This document shows, piece by piece, positions 46,151 through 54,382 of a DNA stretch of 64,000 nt (the stretch's first letter is position 1; each line of letters begins with the position of its first letter). Source of the stretch: an uncultured Armatimonadota bacterium. GTDB lineage: Bacteria; Armatimonadota; Fimbriimonadia; Fimbriimonadales; Fimbriimonadaceae. Made by a program: the position numbers and the translations under genes. Location of the stretch: contig CAIUHP010000113.1 of assembly GCA_903899015.1 (NCBI GenBank), positions 1 through 64,000 on the forward strand, read 5' to 3'. A model generated the notes under the pieces. It was not told the DNA's origin and ran no database searches. It saw only the letters and a list, made by a program, of their open reading frames with translations.

Positions 46151-46177
46151 AAAAGGGACCCCATTTCGAGGTCCCTT
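46151..46177 (-). terminator. Intrinsic terminator after the small lipoprotein gene
   Basis: aagggacc (46153-46160) pairs with ggtccctt (46170-46177); the minus-strand stem is followed by tttctttgg. It ends the lacI-pseudopilin-lipoprotein unit. Confidence 0.8.
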
Positions 46178-46198
46178 CTAAATACAATCTACCGATAC

Positions 46199-46498
46199 TT
46201 ATCGTGTAGGAACATTGCTTGCCTCAGTCTTTCCAGCTTTAGCTTTTATATCGTCGCCCGGCATCGCAACAGCCGGACCGCCCATCTTGGCTTTCATCAT
46301 CGCCTTAGTCTCAGGCGTGATATTGGGCATCGCATCGATTGCGGCTTGCCGCTTCGCATCAGCCGCAGCGCCCTCTGCCGCCGTTGGGTTACGATTCTCT
46401 TCCCCACTGCATCCAACAACTAAAAGAGCGACACTCGCCATCATGACGAGACCGCAACACGTGAGGTTAAGTGGCCACTCAACAGATACCAATTTCAT
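46199..46498 (-). CDS. Small lipoprotein of unknown function
   Basis: From ATG 46498, preceded by GGAGAAAACG. Lipobox LLVVGC with cysteine at about residue 29, then a mature part of about 70 residues rich in Ala, Glu, Lys and Pro (ITPETKAMMKAKMGGPA). The ORF track start at 46690 would overlap the pseudopilin gene's coding region. It is the third gene of the unit with the LacI regulator and the pseudopilin, about 120 bases after the pseudopilin stop. Small lipoproteins next to DUF1559-type pseudopilins are frequent in these phyla, which hints at a shared surface or secretion role. Confidence 0.8.
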   Translation of the reverse strand: MKLVSVEWPLNLTCCGLVMMASVALLVVGCSGEENRNPTAAEGAAADAKRQAAIDAMPNITPETKAMMKAKMGGPAVAMPGDDIKAKAGKTEASNVPTR

Positions 46499-46619
46499 CG
46501 TTTTCTCCAATCCTCTGAACGAATTTATCAAGTTAGGTTCGCCTAACAGTCTTGTGGGGACGGAGGAGAGCAACTCTCCACCGTCCCCCAAGAAACTCAA
46601 CGAGCCCTTTGGTTTGCCC

Positions 46620-47531
46620 TTAGAATGGCTCTTGTGGGTAGTACCAGCCATAAGTCCAGCTGTTGCTGGTAATGCCTGACCGTTGAACATAAATGTTCTT
46701 AAACCACTTCAATCCGCCTTTTGTGACCGACTTCACGTGCCCATCGCTGTAGGCAAAATTCGCATTACCGTTGTAGCGATATCGAGGGTGGGCTGCGCAC
46801 TCCCATTTTCCATCAGATGCACTGTTGCAATCCGTGTCAAACCAAGGAGTATACAGAGCCCATGATGGGTCCTGAGACCGGTCACCATCTCGATTGACAG
46901 TCGCAGCATTGCCTGGCGTTGTTGCGATCGAATCGATGTACTGGAACTGCCAATCCACGAACCAAGGGTATTGCCACCCAGCCGCTGACGAGTTTAGTCC
47001 TTTCTCAGCCATGATGATCTTGTCGGCAGGTTGATCGACTTCGGACGAAGTCATGGAAGGCAGAACCTGTCCGTTACCATCAAACCAGGATTCGCCGCCG
47101 TTATAGTTGGCTGAGCAGATCAGTCGATTGACTCCGAAGTAGTAACCTTCCTTTGAAACGTCGGTCTGGCTGACCTGGGGACCAGCCGGATCCTTGAAGA
47201 TTCCGTCTTTTCCGGTGGAGACTTTATTGCCTGAAACAGGATCGGTAAGTTGGTCGCCATTCTTCACGTAAGGGAAAATGTTCGTCGTCCAAGTGATATG
47301 GGGCGTTGCAGATGACCAACCGTCCCCGTATTCGGACATTGGGAACATGTCGTCTGAATCTCCCGAATACATTAGCAAGCCAAGATTTGCCTGCTTCATG
47401 TTGCTCAGACATTGCGTCTTCTTCGCGGCCATTTTAGCTTGGGCAAATACAGGGAAAAGGATCGCCGCCAAAATAGCGATGATCGCGATAACAACAAGTA
47501 GCTCGATGAGCGTGAAAGCTTTACGGTTCAT
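46620..47531 (-). CDS. DUF1559-type pseudopilin (prepilin-like N-methylation motif)
   Basis: Starts ATG 47531 behind GAGGAA; the track start at 47579 lies in the LacI gene. N-terminus RKAFTLIELLVVIAIIAILAAIL is the type IV pilin/pseudopilin helix with the glutamate at +5 and cleavage before phenylalanine (preceded by Ala and not Gly). Then a globular domain with AKKTQCLSNMKQANLGLLMY and a C-terminal FAYSDGHVKSVTKGG, as in H-x9-DG pseudopilins. 304 residues; inner-membrane anchored or assembled into a secretion pseudopilus. ATG overlaps the lacI stop by 11 bases, so translation is coupled. Confidence 0.9.
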   Translation of the reverse strand: MNRKAFTLIELLVVIAIIAILAAILFPVFAQAKMAAKKTQCLSNMKQANLGLLMYSGDSDDMFPMSEYGDGWSSATPHITWTTNIFPYVKNGDQLTDPVSGNKVSTGKDGIFKDPAGPQVSQTDVSKEGYYFGVNRLICSANYNGGESWFDGNGQVLPSMTSSEVDQPADKIIMAEKGLNSSAAGWQYPWFVDWQFQYIDSIATTPGNAATVNRDGDRSQDPSWALYTPWFDTDCNSASDGKWECAAHPRYRYNGNANFAYSDGHVKSVTKGGLKWFKNIYVQRSGITSNSWTYGWYYPQEPF

Positions 47532-48585
47532 TTGATTCCTCAGCATTGAGATAGATTGCAGTCGATCCCCGCACATCAAAAGTGCAAGGGAATATCTTCG
47601 AAAATTGGCCAGAATCCCGGCCCGAGATTAAATCGAGTAACGCTTGAGTAGCAAAGGCAGCCATCTCTCGAATGGGCTGCCGTACCGCGGTCAAGCGCGG
47701 CGTAGTTGTTTCGCAGTAGAGGGTTGAGTCAAATCCAACGACGCTCATTTGAGCTGGCACTTCTATGCCTGACTCCGAAAGCCTTTGTAACAATCGATCG
47801 GCAACGCTCTCCGTCCAGCCGACCGCGGCAGTGCAGTTATTCGCCTGAAGGTAAGCAGGAACACTGTCTAAAAACCACTGAGATTCTGTGACGAAAGGCG
47901 TGCCACCTCTCTTCTTAATCGCCGCTTCGTAGCCTCCGAGCCGCGCAATGCAGTCAGGAGTGTTTCGCTCTTCCCATTCGTGAACGAAAGCAATGTTTCG
48001 ATGTCCGAGGTCCCACAAGTGAGCGACCGCTAACTCCATTCCACCTTCATTGTCACAATTCACGTAAACCACATCTGAACCTGGCTCAGGTGCGGCTGCA
48101 TTGAGTGCTACGATCGGTATGGGGGTTTTGCGAATGAGGTTGATGGTCTCTTCGTCGCGGGCCAACTTGCACCAGATCACCCCGTCCATTTGGCCATCGC
48201 CTAGCGACCCAATCACATTATCGTGGTCCACCTCAGCCAGAACACTCAGGCGATATCCATTTTTGAAAAGTACGGAGGATACGCCGTCCAGCAAGTAGGT
48301 GATATAAAGCGGTCCGTCACTTAGGCCCTTGAGGTTCTCAAATAAAACTCCGATGGTATGCGACTTACTCATGCGAAGGTTGCGGGCAACCGCATTCACG
48401 CGGTAGTTCATTCGCTCAGCAACTGCACGGATCTGCTCGGCGCGAACTTCACTGACACGCACACTGCTTCCGCCGCCATGTAGGACACGAGAAACCGCCG
48501 CTGTTGATACATTGGCGGCCTCCGCAACATCTTTTAATGTTACGGGTCGGCTCGGGCGCTCTAGTTTTGACTTATCTACTGCCAT
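47521..48585 (-). CDS. LacI family transcriptional regulator
   Basis: N-terminal helix-turn-helix VTLKDVAEAANVSTAAVSRVL with the hinge NYRVNAVARNLR, then a periplasmic-binding-type sugar domain (IGVLFENLKGLSDGPLYITYLLDGV, DGVIWCKLA, VYVNCDNEGGMELAVAHLWDLGHRNIAFVHE, VVGFDST). 354 residues. It probably represses its own promoter: a 28-bp palindrome begins at the predicted transcription start. Its stop overlaps the pseudopilin start. The inducer is probably a sugar or sugar phosphate but cannot be named. Confidence 0.95.
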   Translation of the reverse strand: MAVDKSKLERPSRPVTLKDVAEAANVSTAAVSRVLHGGGSSVRVSEVRAEQIRAVAERMNYRVNAVARNLRMSKSHTIGVLFENLKGLSDGPLYITYLLDGVSSVLFKNGYRLSVLAEVDHDNVIGSLGDGQMDGVIWCKLARDEETINLIRKTPIPIVALNAAAPEPGSDVVYVNCDNEGGMELAVAHLWDLGHRNIAFVHEWEERNTPDCIARLGGYEAAIKKRGGTPFVTESQWFLDSVPAYLQANNCTAAVGWTESVADRLLQRLSESGIEVPAQMSVVGFDSTLYCETTTPRLTAVRQPIREMAAFATQALLDLISGRDSGQFSKIFPCTFDVRGSTAIYLNAEESNEP

Positions 48586-48646: not shown

Positions 48647-48674
48647 GATTAATCCTTAGGTTTAAGGATTAATC
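48647..48674. promoter_or_regulatory. 28-bp palindromic candidate LacI-type operator
   Basis: gattaatcctta (48647-48658) and taaggattaatc (48663-48674) are exact inverted copies around ggtt. It lies immediately downstream of the promoter below, from about +1 to +28 of the lacI transcript. Its position is what a self-repressing operator would require; binding by this LacI is inferred. The half-sites differ from the common LacI CG-centred core. Confidence 0.65.
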
Positions 48675-48681
48675 ATCAATG

Positions 48682-48710
48682 ATTATACGATCAATCAAGC
48701 GAAATCGTAA
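48682..48710 (-). promoter_or_regulatory. Sigma70-like promoter of lacI
   Basis: Minus strand: TTACGA (48710-48705) and TATAAT (48687-48682), 17 bases apart, with a predicted start near 48675 and a 90-base leader. Confidence 0.7.
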
Positions 48711-49097: not shown

Positions 49098-50969
49098 CTA
49101 GGCGTTGATCTGGATGACGTCTGCACTGAGTACAAACGGAGCCGTAGTCAAGCGAGGAGGAACAATCGCTCGTAGGATGGCTTTTACTGAATTGCCAGGA
49201 CCTACGAATCGAGTGGCTGCAAGGGTCGGGCTTCCCGTCAGACCTGCTTGGGCTGTGCTGAAGTTAGCTGCGTTTACCATGACCCACGTCCTACCGACGA
49301 AATCATAGAGGTACAGCTGACCAGTCACGCCTGCCATCGCTGAACCAGACGCTGTTGCGGTGATGGAGCTAATGGCACTATTCGCAAGAACGAAGTCGGC
49401 TTCGATTGAGACCGTTTGGCCAGCGGGAGTCAGAACGGACTTCGCTTTGTAAACTTTACTGTCTGCGATGGCGATATCGGTAACCGCACCGCTAACATAA
49501 GTGCCTTGATAGACCGAGACTGAAGATGCAGCCAACGGAGGTCCGACTGTAATAGTTACTGGCTTAGAAGCAAGTCCATTGCAGACAACTTCGATGATGC
49601 TCTTTCCAGTCTCGATTGACTTTGGAACTTGGAAGTTCGTCGAAACAACCTTTGAGCCAGTTTGAACGGCGTAAGTGCTTGGATTGAACGCTCGGCAATA
49701 GACAACCGTGCCGGACTTGGCATTGGTGATCCTAACCTGAGCATAGTTCGTGTAGTTCTGTTGGTCGTCTCCGTAAGCAGAAGCACCGGACATACCATTG
49801 AACTGCAAACCTGAGATAGCGTAAGAGGAACCAGGTACAACCGTCGAAGGCGATGCCGTGATTGATGGGTACCAAGATGGATCTGGGGTTCCCTTCGAAG
49901 TGTACAGGTACATGCTTGGGCTCTGATTCGTGTAGAGCAATTCACCTGTAGGCAACGTCAAGAAGTTACCGGTGAAGGAAGTGTCACCTGATGAAGTCGG
50001 AAGTCCGACAACCTGATTCAACTTCGTTCCATCCCACTCGAAGAAGACAACTCCGCTCTGCGCGAAGCCAGGGCTGGTTGCACAAATGACGTTACCGCTC
50101 GGCAGAAGACAGGCAGGAGCGTCTGCGCAGTCCAACTGACCAGCAGTTATAGATGGGAAGTCAGGTGCGGCTGACCAAGTGCCTGTCTTGGTGTTGTAAA
50201 CCGAGTTGTGCTGAGAACCACCGAAGCAGATAACCGTTCCATCTGGTCGCAAAACCATTGGACCGATTTCTTCGGTCTTGTCTTGAACGAGGTTATTGAT
50301 CGTGCTTCCACCCGCTCCCCACTGGAGCGTGGTCGAATTGAAAATTTCTGAGTTTGGCGTCTTCACTGCGTCGACAGTCAAAACATTGCCGTTTGGCAAC
50401 AATACCAATCCTTCTTCATCATTACCGTCGGCTTTACCGTTCGTAAAGGGCTGACCAAATGTGCTGGTTGCAGGATCGAAAATGACGCACTGATTAGATA
50501 GCGGATCCGCAATCAAAAGCTTGCCCTGCGGCAACATGATGCTGCCGGTGTCTCCCATCTGAGTCCATGCGGCGGGCGCGGTTAGCTGGGACCAAGTATC
50601 TCGCACCGGATCGTACATGTAACCGAGGTTCTGCCAATTGTTGTTGCCGAAGTTATACTCGCCGCCCATCGTGAAGACACGACCATCGGGGAGTACAGAA
50701 GATGCGTAGTAGAGAGGTCCGTAGCCAGGAGTCTTTGCTAATTGCTTCCAGGTTCCGTTTGAATAGCTTCCCTTCTTGTCGGGGGTTAATTTCCACCAAA
50801 CGTCGTTGTCTCCGTCTTGAACCATAACGGTGCCGTCAGTGAGAAGGGTCGGGTTGTACGCCGAGATGCTTGGCGTATTGTTGAGCGGGGTCCACGTTTG
50901 AGAAAACGCTGCCGCAGACATCAAGGTGAGACATGAGACTATCAGTCCGGCACTTATATTACGATTCAA
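49098..50969 (-). CDS. Secreted kelch/galactose-oxidase-like protein
   Basis: Signal peptide (LIVSCLTLMSAAAFSQ), then a beta-propeller of kelch-type repeats (about residues 25-370; FTMGGEYNFGNNNWQNLGYMY, LIADPLSNQCVIFDPATSTF, VICFGGSQHNSVYNTKTGTW), then a galactose-oxidase-type C-terminal beta domain (SYAISGLQFNGMSGASAYGDD, RAFNPSTYAVQTGS) and an extra 120-residue beta module. Copper-ligand Tyr/His pairs are not obvious, so it may be structural or binding, not an oxidase. 623 residues. Start is TTG 50969: GGAGG stands seven bases before it. Own promoter and terminator. Confidence 0.85.
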   Translation of the reverse strand: MNRNISAGLIVSCLTLMSAAAFSQTWTPLNNTPSISAYNPTLLTDGTVMVQDGDNDVWWKLTPDKKGSYSNGTWKQLAKTPGYGPLYYASSVLPDGRVFTMGGEYNFGNNNWQNLGYMYDPVRDTWSQLTAPAAWTQMGDTGSIMLPQGKLLIADPLSNQCVIFDPATSTFGQPFTNGKADGNDEEGLVLLPNGNVLTVDAVKTPNSEIFNSTTLQWGAGGSTINNLVQDKTEEIGPMVLRPDGTVICFGGSQHNSVYNTKTGTWSAAPDFPSITAGQLDCADAPACLLPSGNVICATSPGFAQSGVVFFEWDGTKLNQVVGLPTSSGDTSFTGNFLTLPTGELLYTNQSPSMYLYTSKGTPDPSWYPSITASPSTVVPGSSYAISGLQFNGMSGASAYGDDQQNYTNYAQVRITNAKSGTVVYCRAFNPSTYAVQTGSKVVSTNFQVPKSIETGKSIIEVVCNGLASKPVTITVGPPLAASSVSVYQGTYVSGAVTDIAIADSKVYKAKSVLTPAGQTVSIEADFVLANSAISSITATASGSAMAGVTGQLYLYDFVGRTWVMVNAANFSTAQAGLTGSPTLAATRFVGPGNSVKAILRAIVPPRLTTAPFVLSADVIQINA

Positions 50970-51733: not shown

Positions 51734-54382
51734 TTGACAGATTCACACCGGTTTATATACAACGAGGGCTACGAATGGCTCACAAACTCCGATGCGGTCG
51801 AAACGTTTGTTAGCCGTCTCACGTCGCCGATTGGTACGTCATCCGATATAACCTTTGATCAAGCAATGCAGGCTCTGATAGCTGCTCAAGAATCAAAAAA
51901 TGAGATTGCAGAGGCCGTATTACGACGCGGTTTGTGCGAATGGCTCCGGGAGTCGGGAAAGCTCATCGAAGCCATTGATTACGGTCAAATTGCCCTCGAA
52001 ATCTTTGACAAGCATTCAGCCTTTGTAGAAAAGACGCGCGTACTTCTCAGTCTTGCCGGGTGCCGGATTCACATTGGAGACCAAGCGGGGGCATTCGCGC
52101 ACCTTGCGGAAGCAGAAAGTATTGCTCGAACCTATGGTCCAAGATCCCAACTCGCCCAAGTCTTAGTTTCCATGGGCGCCTACTATGGGAGAGTTAAGGC
52201 GGCAGAAAAATCCCTCGAATACTCGCTCCTGGTGGAAGAAGAATTTTCTGACACCCTCCAGACTGCAAAGCGAATCAACATCCTCAACAATATCGGCGGT
52301 AGCTTAAACGACCTACAGCGCTTTGACGAAGCTCTGCCATACATTGAAAAAGGTCTCCAGTTAGTTGACCAAATTGACGACCTGCTACCAAAAGCTTTTC
52401 TCCTCGGAAACAAAGCTGTCGTTTTGAGCCGGGCAAAGAAAATTCAAGAGATAACGGACATCATCGGTCAAGTTGAATCTATCTCTCAGCGCACAGGAAA
52501 ACCATTTGTGTACGTAGCTCTCATGGAAGAGTTGGGAGTTTCCTATCTGAGTACGGGCTACTTAGATGACGCAATCGAATGCTTGATTCAAGGCAAGCGA
52601 TTGGCTGAGCAATATTCGTTTCGAACTCAATTACGCAATTCCAGCAAGCATCTCGCTCGCGCCTATGAGCTGTCTGGCGAACCCCAAAAGGCCCTCAAAG
52701 AGTTACATGATGCTTTGGAAATCGCGGAAGAATCGTTGAATCACGATGTCGATGTCGCGATTAAGAATGCTCTTTTACGACAGGATGCCGATTTCGCAAA
52801 ACGCCAATCTGAGTTGATGCGAGTTGCAAAGGAAGAGGCAGAAAGTGCCAGCCGAGCAAAGACAGAGTTTCTTGCCAACATAAGCCATGAAATCAGGACT
52901 CCTCTAAACGGTGTTCTTGGTATGACTTCACTTCTGTTAGACACCAACCTCTTGCCGGACCAACGGGAATATGCGAACTTGATTCGGGTGTCAGGAGATG
53001 CCCTACTTGGCGTAATCGGCAATGTGCTCGATATTTCAAAAATCGAAGCTGGCAAGTTAAGCTTCGAGAGCAAAGAACTCGATTTTATTGAACTCTGTGA
53101 CGATGTAATTTCAGCCCTGGCAGTTCGTGCTCATGAAAAAGATGTCGAACTTTCAGTTGTAGCGCCTCCCAACTTCCCTGCGATGGTGAAAGGAGACGGC
53201 AACCGCATTCGACAAATTCTCATCAACTTGATCGGTAATGCGACGAAATTTACGGAAGCCGGGGAAATTTCAGTCGAGCTTTCCTCAACTCAAGAAGCAG
53301 AAGACAAAATTCGGATTAATGTCCAAGTTACCGACACCGGAATAGGCATCCCTGAGCACCAACTTCAATCAATTTTCGAAAGCTTTACTCAAGCAGATGG
53401 TTCGACAAGTAGGCGATTTGGAGGATCAGGCTTAGGTTTAGCGATTAGCAAGAAGCTTGTTGAGATGATGGGTGGCACCATCGGTGTCACGAGTAAGGAG
53501 AACATTGGAAGTACATTTTGGTTTGAGATCCTCCTCGAAAAAGGTGTAAAACGATCGCGACACGTGTGGTTCCGAGATGCGTCCGATAAGCAGGTGGCGA
53601 TTGTCAGTTCCCGCCCTCGGACCATCGAAGTGCTTAGAAATGGACTCGATGGCATCGGAATTCAATTCGAGACATATCATGAAGTTGGCGAACTCAAAAA
53701 AGTTCCCGATTTGATCATTCTTGATCTTGCCACCCAAGAGTCAGAGTGGATTGAAACTATCCATCAAACCCGAGCACGGCTTGATAAATCTGATCTTCCG
53801 TTTATTGCTCTCACCATGATTGGCAGTAAGTACACGGAGCTATCGGGCAACGTTGCTCCCCACGTAACGCTTATGCTCAAACCCGTTCGCCGACGGAATC
53901 TCAGGTTGGCGGTTGGAGAGTTGCTCAACTTAAAATCCGTTCACTCCGGCCCCGAGCGGCGCAGCGAAAAACCATCTTTCCATCAACTCCGGGTCCTTGT
54001 GGCTGAGGACAATCTCGTCAATCAATTAGTGGCCGAAGCTTTATTAAAAGGTTTGGACTGCGAAGTAACGGTAGCCAATAATGGAGTAGAAGCCGTCGAA
54101 AAATTTAGAGATGAAATATACGATTTCGTCTTTATGGACTGCCAAATGCCAGTAATGGATGGATACCAAGCAACTATCAAGATGAGGCGGATGGAAGCTC
54201 TATCCAAACGTCGAATTCCAATCGTCGCGATGACAGCAAATGCTTCGGAAGCTGATCGTGATGCTTGCATCGCTTGCGGGATGGATGATTTCCTTCCAAA
54301 GCCAATTTCGGAAACCGACCTTATCGAATCTTTGCGGCGCAACCTTATGATTGGAACACTCATGAGATCGCGCATTCGATAG
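51734..54382 (+). CDS. Soluble hybrid sensor histidine kinase with TPR sensor
   Basis: 882 residues, no membrane helix. Residues about 55-340 are TPR-like repeats ([34 protein letters not shown]). The kinase core has H385 in [16 protein letters not shown]-box [12 protein letters not shown]1 DTGIGIPE and G2 [12 protein letters not shown] first receiver-like domain (about 610-735) keeps one aspartate (LIILDLA) but is divergent; a second at about 755-875 is canonical ([32 protein letters not shown]). It should phosphorylate a downstream partner or itself; no histidine phosphotransfer protein was seen. Start TTG 51734. The STN-like gene 47 bases downstream may be its partner. Confidence 0.93.

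Follow-up and report, generated by a model that had tools for sequence, protein, structure and literature searches.

What is a sugar-type repressor gene doing directly ahead of a pseudopilin gene, and through which DNA element might it act? The window analysed here, a 64,000-nucleotide stretch from an uncultured Armatimonadota bacterium, carries on its minus strand a lacI gene (47521–48585) for a 354-residue LacI-family regulator, a pseudopilin gene (46620–47531, 303 residues) and a gene for a small lipoprotein of 99 residues with the lipobox VVGC (46199–46498). As the original prediction had described, the lacI stop overlaps the pseudopilin start by 11 nucleotides (lacI runs from 48585 to 47521, and the pilin ATG lies at 47531), and the lipoprotein gene and an intrinsic terminator-like hairpin (46151–46179, minus strand) complete a three-gene unit. 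The regulator joins an N-terminal LacI helix-turn-helix (PF00356) to a periplasmic-binding-protein-like core (PF13377), both above cut-off, and its structure matches are CcpA, RbsR, PurR and LacI. Residues of a sugar-type pocket are kept, with equivalents of R197 and D274 (numbered on the E. coli LacI sequence) present in 105/106 and 103/106 sequences, respectively, the window's included. The pseudopilin possesses a class III prepilin signal (PF07963) and a DUF1559 domain (PF07596), again above cut-off, as well as a TIGR02532 match; the C-terminal H-X9-DG motif TIGR04294 scores 14.5 bits (cut-off 19), and an AlphaFold model from the single sequence reaches a pLDDT of 38. In its C-terminal part, tryptophans and a pair of cysteines are conserved, several of these residues being particular to this orthologous group, a pattern compatible with a ligand-binding head. 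Searches with the lipoprotein returned no domain or family match.

The coupling of a LacI regulator to a pseudopilin had been put forward as uncommon, and comparison with related genomes reversed that impression. The window's own 4.94-Mb genome encodes 76 prepilins, and the suggested search of it for matching pairs was productive: 7 of its 11 lacI genes lead directly into a prepilin gene. The pairing is the norm in the lineage, where 69 of 107 LacI-like genes, sampled in this genome and in related ones, have a DUF1559 prepilin immediately behind them, although this sample leans towards close relatives because it was drawn by matches to the window's LacI. To define orthologues, we collected 27 genes from the same genus and family at E < 1e-75, the window's own included. 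A prepilin follows directly in 23 of these and one ends at a contig edge, while in the remaining three (genomes G013 and G004) the intervening DNA encodes a small protein, alone or together with a second LacI. The lipoprotein partner belongs to one alignable family of small lipoproteins or membrane-anchored proteins, found at 25/27 orthologous cassettes either ahead of lacI, between lacI and the pilin, or after the pilin. Judged by these comparisons, the lacI–pilin–lipoprotein unit is conserved across the bacterial family. A LacI search of the genome contigs found only distant LacI proteins.

The surroundings of the cassettes are less uniform. Genes flanking the orthologous cassettes showed no enrichment in carbohydrate enzymes, and FHA-domain proteins lead the tally. 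Upstream of lacI, the window holds a gene with its own terminator for a Kelch-repeat protein (49098–50969) weakly matching the radical copper oxidase GlxA; no operator was found at this gene. Two prepilin genes elsewhere in the same genome (L169 and L203) stand immediately behind genes that, judged by eye, encode GntR-type regulators, so regulator–prepilin coupling is not limited to LacI.

We then asked which element controls the unit. The proposed perfect 12-4-12 palindrome is indeed present on the minus strand at the predicted +1 of lacI, its arms occupying 48647–48658 and 48663–48674; on the coding strand it reads, from 48674 to 48647, GATTAATCCTTA-AACC-TAAGGATTAATC. The -10 box TATAAT (48682–48687, minus strand) places the +1 at ~48675/48674, approximately where the repeat starts. 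This half of the suggested TTACGA-17-TATAAT promoter held up, whereas the -35-like hexamer TTACGA (48705–48710, minus strand) is poor, agreeing with TTGACA at 3/6 positions and absent from the promoter-scan listing; two orthologues (L018 and L021) are laid out in the same way and have a perfect TTGACA-16-TATAAT. Taken alone, the palindrome's length is weak evidence, since the window contains 13 inverted repeats with arms of at least 12 bases (nested counts) against ~0.075 expected by chance, an excess that probably reflects terminator hairpins. Nor did the search for further copies succeed: the 28-bp sequence occurs once in the 4.94-Mb genome, even allowing up to three mismatches.

Conservation resolved the element into something smaller. 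The full 28-mer, expected upstream of orthologous lacI genes, is absent from nearly all of them, but a 16-bp site persists: only genome G005 keeps a version of the palindrome, shortened to AATCCTT-AAACC-AAGGATT, and G013 has the 16-mer without the other arm. A palindromic motif learned by expectation-maximisation on 26 orthologue upstream regions, with the window excluded, gave the consensus GATTAAACGTTTAATC (strong positions GAT--A----T--ATC). Applied to the 64-kb window, it ranks first a site that we call O2 (48659–48674, minus strand, GATTAATCCTTAAACC, 17.4 bits), which lies at the +1, forms the left 16 bp of the palindrome and is identical in G005. A second site, O1 (48681–48696, minus strand, GATTGATCGTATAATC), ranks third with 16.3 bits, contains the TATAAT box, whose placement is the same in orthologues, and recurs as an identical 16-mer in the orthologue of G015; the next site drops to 10.3 bits. 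O1, which the original prediction did not include, starts 22 bp from O2. The palindrome's overlap with an operator motif learned independently of the window counts as strong evidence. As the conserved operator, the 28-bp palindrome was ruled out, its conservation being limited to its left 16 bp; judged by motif and conservation, the conserved control element is instead a tandem pair of 16-bp LacI-type operators (GATNNANSSNTNNATC).

The site ranked second (51845–51860, 16.7 bits) falls inside a TPR histidine kinase gene (51734–54382), within its reading frame, and is probably a chance match; it sits 2 bases ahead of an in-frame ATG at 51863 and could be real if the kinase gene starts there.

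Might the palindrome instead work mainly as RNA, a 5'-end hairpin that stabilises the message or attenuates transcription? The predicted hairpin is stable (-14.3 kcal/mol, z = -6.0), begins at the predicted +1 and was flagged by a loose terminator scan. However, the stem is followed by no U run, and the right arm that would close it is not conserved in orthologues whereas the 16-bp DNA site is, leaving us to give this explanation very little credence. Since the hairpin is not conserved, it would be an accessory at most.

Several observations connect these operators with LacI itself. The tandem 16-6-16 pattern occurs in 10/20 genus genomes, almost always at orthologous or related lacI cassettes, while a reversed control pattern gave no hit, and the exact core GATNNANNNNTNNATC lies upstream of 35/107 lacI genes against 0.32 in shuffles. 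LacI position 18, in the recognition helix, covaries with operator base 5 (p = 7e-7, shared descent ignored), which is what binding of each site by its cognate LacI would predict. The palindromic 16-bp operator at the promoter is thus what one finds in the LacI family, and the self-repression originally proposed gains from operators placed at the lacI promoter and conserved in orthologues; autoregulation of lacI is well supported by these sequence patterns, with repression as its presumed mode.

Other sites were seen across the genome. A relaxed whole-genome search for a regulon, allowing one mismatch, gave no signal over the reversed control (52/57 versus 47/47), and four operator matches away from lacI genes (L223, L224, L241 and L251) were discarded as lying in or at coding sequence. 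Three weak operator-like sites occur within 3.4 kb of G000:C69. An operator-like site at G000:C30:3319-3334 (L197, GATAGACCGGTAAATC, 18.1 bits), ~190 bp upstream of a prepilin gene with no adjoining lacI, is possibly a further target in trans. The same genome also contains a second lacI–prepilin unit (L090/L001, G000:C18:69197) whose promoter has CG-centred repeats of another type (GCTCAAACGTTTGAGC); by its sequence, it is a parallel cassette with a distinct operator specificity.

Genome-wide, the best operator site outside lacI promoters (GATTAAACCTTAAATC, 22.1 bits) lies 11 nucleotides ahead of a GH5 gene (G000:C86:41936). The encoded protein is nearest to exo-1,3-beta-glucanases (best match 4.4e-20) and carries an NEP motif followed further on by an IGEF glutamate, which we take to be the expected GH5 catalytic pair. 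Among the 19 genus genomes that have this GH5, 11 carry an operator within ~400 bp of where the match begins, compared with 0/19 in downstream controls and a background of 1.7% per 400 bp (p ~3e-15, shared descent ignored). Two further genomes place the gene inside the cassette itself, in the order lacI–pilin–lipoprotein–GH5 (G017) or lipoprotein–lacI–pilin–GH5 (G006). With these two left out, operators stand at the GH5 gene in 11/13 genomes with a LacI orthologue and in 0/4 without one (p = 0.006, relatedness ignored); G002 and G010, which have both the LacI orthologue and the GH5 gene and no operator at the latter, count against the model. Where LacI paralogues lack a pilin, they lead into GH52 genes or sit ~1.3 kb from GH116 genes. 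Together, the GH5 operator, the GH5 genes within cassettes and the GH52 and GH116 neighbours make a glycan ligand likely, with a beta-1,3-glucan oligosaccharide as the best guess. The idea of sugar dependence thereby acquires real support in the operator common to the glucanase gene, and a beta-glucan would be the presumed signal. Separately, in G019 a GH5 homologue lies 11 nucleotides upstream of a non-orthologous LacI gene (L104, 8080-10296).

A simpler scheme would have LacI control only itself and GH5, with the pilin and lipoprotein as passengers that are co-transcribed by position and have no function in common. The variable gene order and the differing surroundings of the cassette between genomes are in keeping with this, but a passenger would hardly be expected to follow lacI directly in 23/27 orthologues or to be accompanied by one lipoprotein family at 25/27 of them. 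Moreover, G004 and G013 have a further tandem operator directly ahead of the structural genes, and LacI and pilin sequence distances are correlated (r = 0.71, permutation null maximum 0.13), which indicates that the two proteins diverged together. We consider the passenger scheme quite improbable.

Between the pilin and lipoprotein genes lies a strong stem-loop (46550–46593, minus strand; z = -4.95 for 46545–46612), another addition to the original prediction. Stem-loops of unrelated sequence occupy the same position in most same-order loci that have an intergenic gap (L071, L073, L075, L078, L081, L082, L102 and L110 among others). Such a recurring structure is what one would expect if it stabilised the message or partly terminated transcription, so that more pilin than lipoprotein was made.

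Overall, the reading that we favour, and hold to be reasonably probable, is that of an autoregulated, glycan-responsive LacI cassette that co-controls itself, the pseudopilin, the lipoprotein and the GH5 glucanase. When no ligand is present, LacI dimers would occupy the two 16-bp operators, two helical turns apart, with O1 over the -10 box and O2 at the +1, and would shut off transcription of lacI, pseudopilin and lipoprotein, presumably by occlusion. The same LacI would repress the distant GH5 exo-beta-1,3-glucanase-like gene through the operator just before its start codon. Binding of an oligosaccharide, putatively derived from beta-glucan, to the LacI core would free the operators, and glucanase, dedicated pseudopilin and lipoprotein would be made, the intergenic stem-loop probably keeping pilin output above that of the lipoprotein. 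The pilin would presumably be assembled by the general prepilin machinery and, more speculatively, may help to capture or hold polysaccharide near the cell. The operators, the layout, their conservation, the residue–operator covariation and the operator common to GH5 can be read from the sequences, while repression, ligand and pilin role belong to the model.

The same circuit could also serve the cell's own beta-glucan matrix or adhesion rather than nutrition, with GH5 trimming the matrix and the pilin acting as an adhesin. Pilins frequently have a role in adhesion, and the cassette has no transporter or glycan-uptake gene as a regular neighbour; against this, the related LacI genes that lack a pilin and stand ahead of GH52, a family known as beta-xylosidases, suggest feeding on external glycans. 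On balance, we regard a matrix function as unlikely, and return to the glycan-responsive cassette in comparing the locus with known systems.

Local LacI control of carbohydrate genes is already known, and the cassette shares with the LacI/GalR local repressors of carbohydrate operons the domain layout, palindromic 16-bp operators over the core promoter, autoregulation, the ligand-pocket residues and a glycoside hydrolase among the targets. It differs from them in that the main co-transcribed genes encode a pseudopilin and a lipoprotein rather than transporters or enzymes, and in the exact 22-bp spacing of its two operators. With the DUF1559 / H-X9-DG prepilins, which are expanded in Planctomycetes and relatives, the pilin has in common the class III prepilin signal, the DUF1559 match, a DG motif near the C-terminus (TIGR04294 being below cut-off here) and the many copies per genome; unlike those, a subset of copies here has a dedicated LacI gene and operator and an associated small lipoprotein family. 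The open-licence papers searched gave no account of LacI-controlled prepilins, nor of LacI control over a pseudopilin–lipoprotein pair that recurs in a lineage with diverged operators. The new element is the LacI-type operator common to the lacI–pilin cassette and the GH5 exo-beta-1,3-glucanase-like gene, which suggests that a dedicated pilin is made when a particular polysaccharide is sensed. In some phyla, a single genome can encode dozens of DUF1559 prepilins. Coupling of prepilins to glycan sensing, one repressor at a time and through readable operators, makes it possible to approach the function of each pilin directly, by way of the ligand that its LacI binds and of the enzymes carrying the same operator; a beta-1,3-glucanase is where the first link of this kind points.

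Finally, the locus recalls the Sus-type polysaccharide utilisation loci of Bacteroidota, where a glycan-responsive regulator, a surface lipoprotein and a glycoside hydrolase likewise come under one control; here the hydrolase appears to be co-regulated through a shared operator or a shared operon with GH5. Neither SusC nor SusD was found among the cassette genes or the 25 most frequent Pfam families in the flanking genes, a pseudopilin is the candidate for the surface component, and the GH gene usually lies elsewhere in the genome, for which reasons we propose a resemblance in function only. Extending the comparison, the lineage might, as a tentative possibility, carry many parallel cassettes that each combine a LacI with an operator specificity of its own, a pseudopilin with a distinct C-terminal part and a lipoprotein; together they would constitute a pilin-based counterpart of Sus-type polysaccharide capture, each dedicated pilin being displayed solely in response to its cognate glycan.
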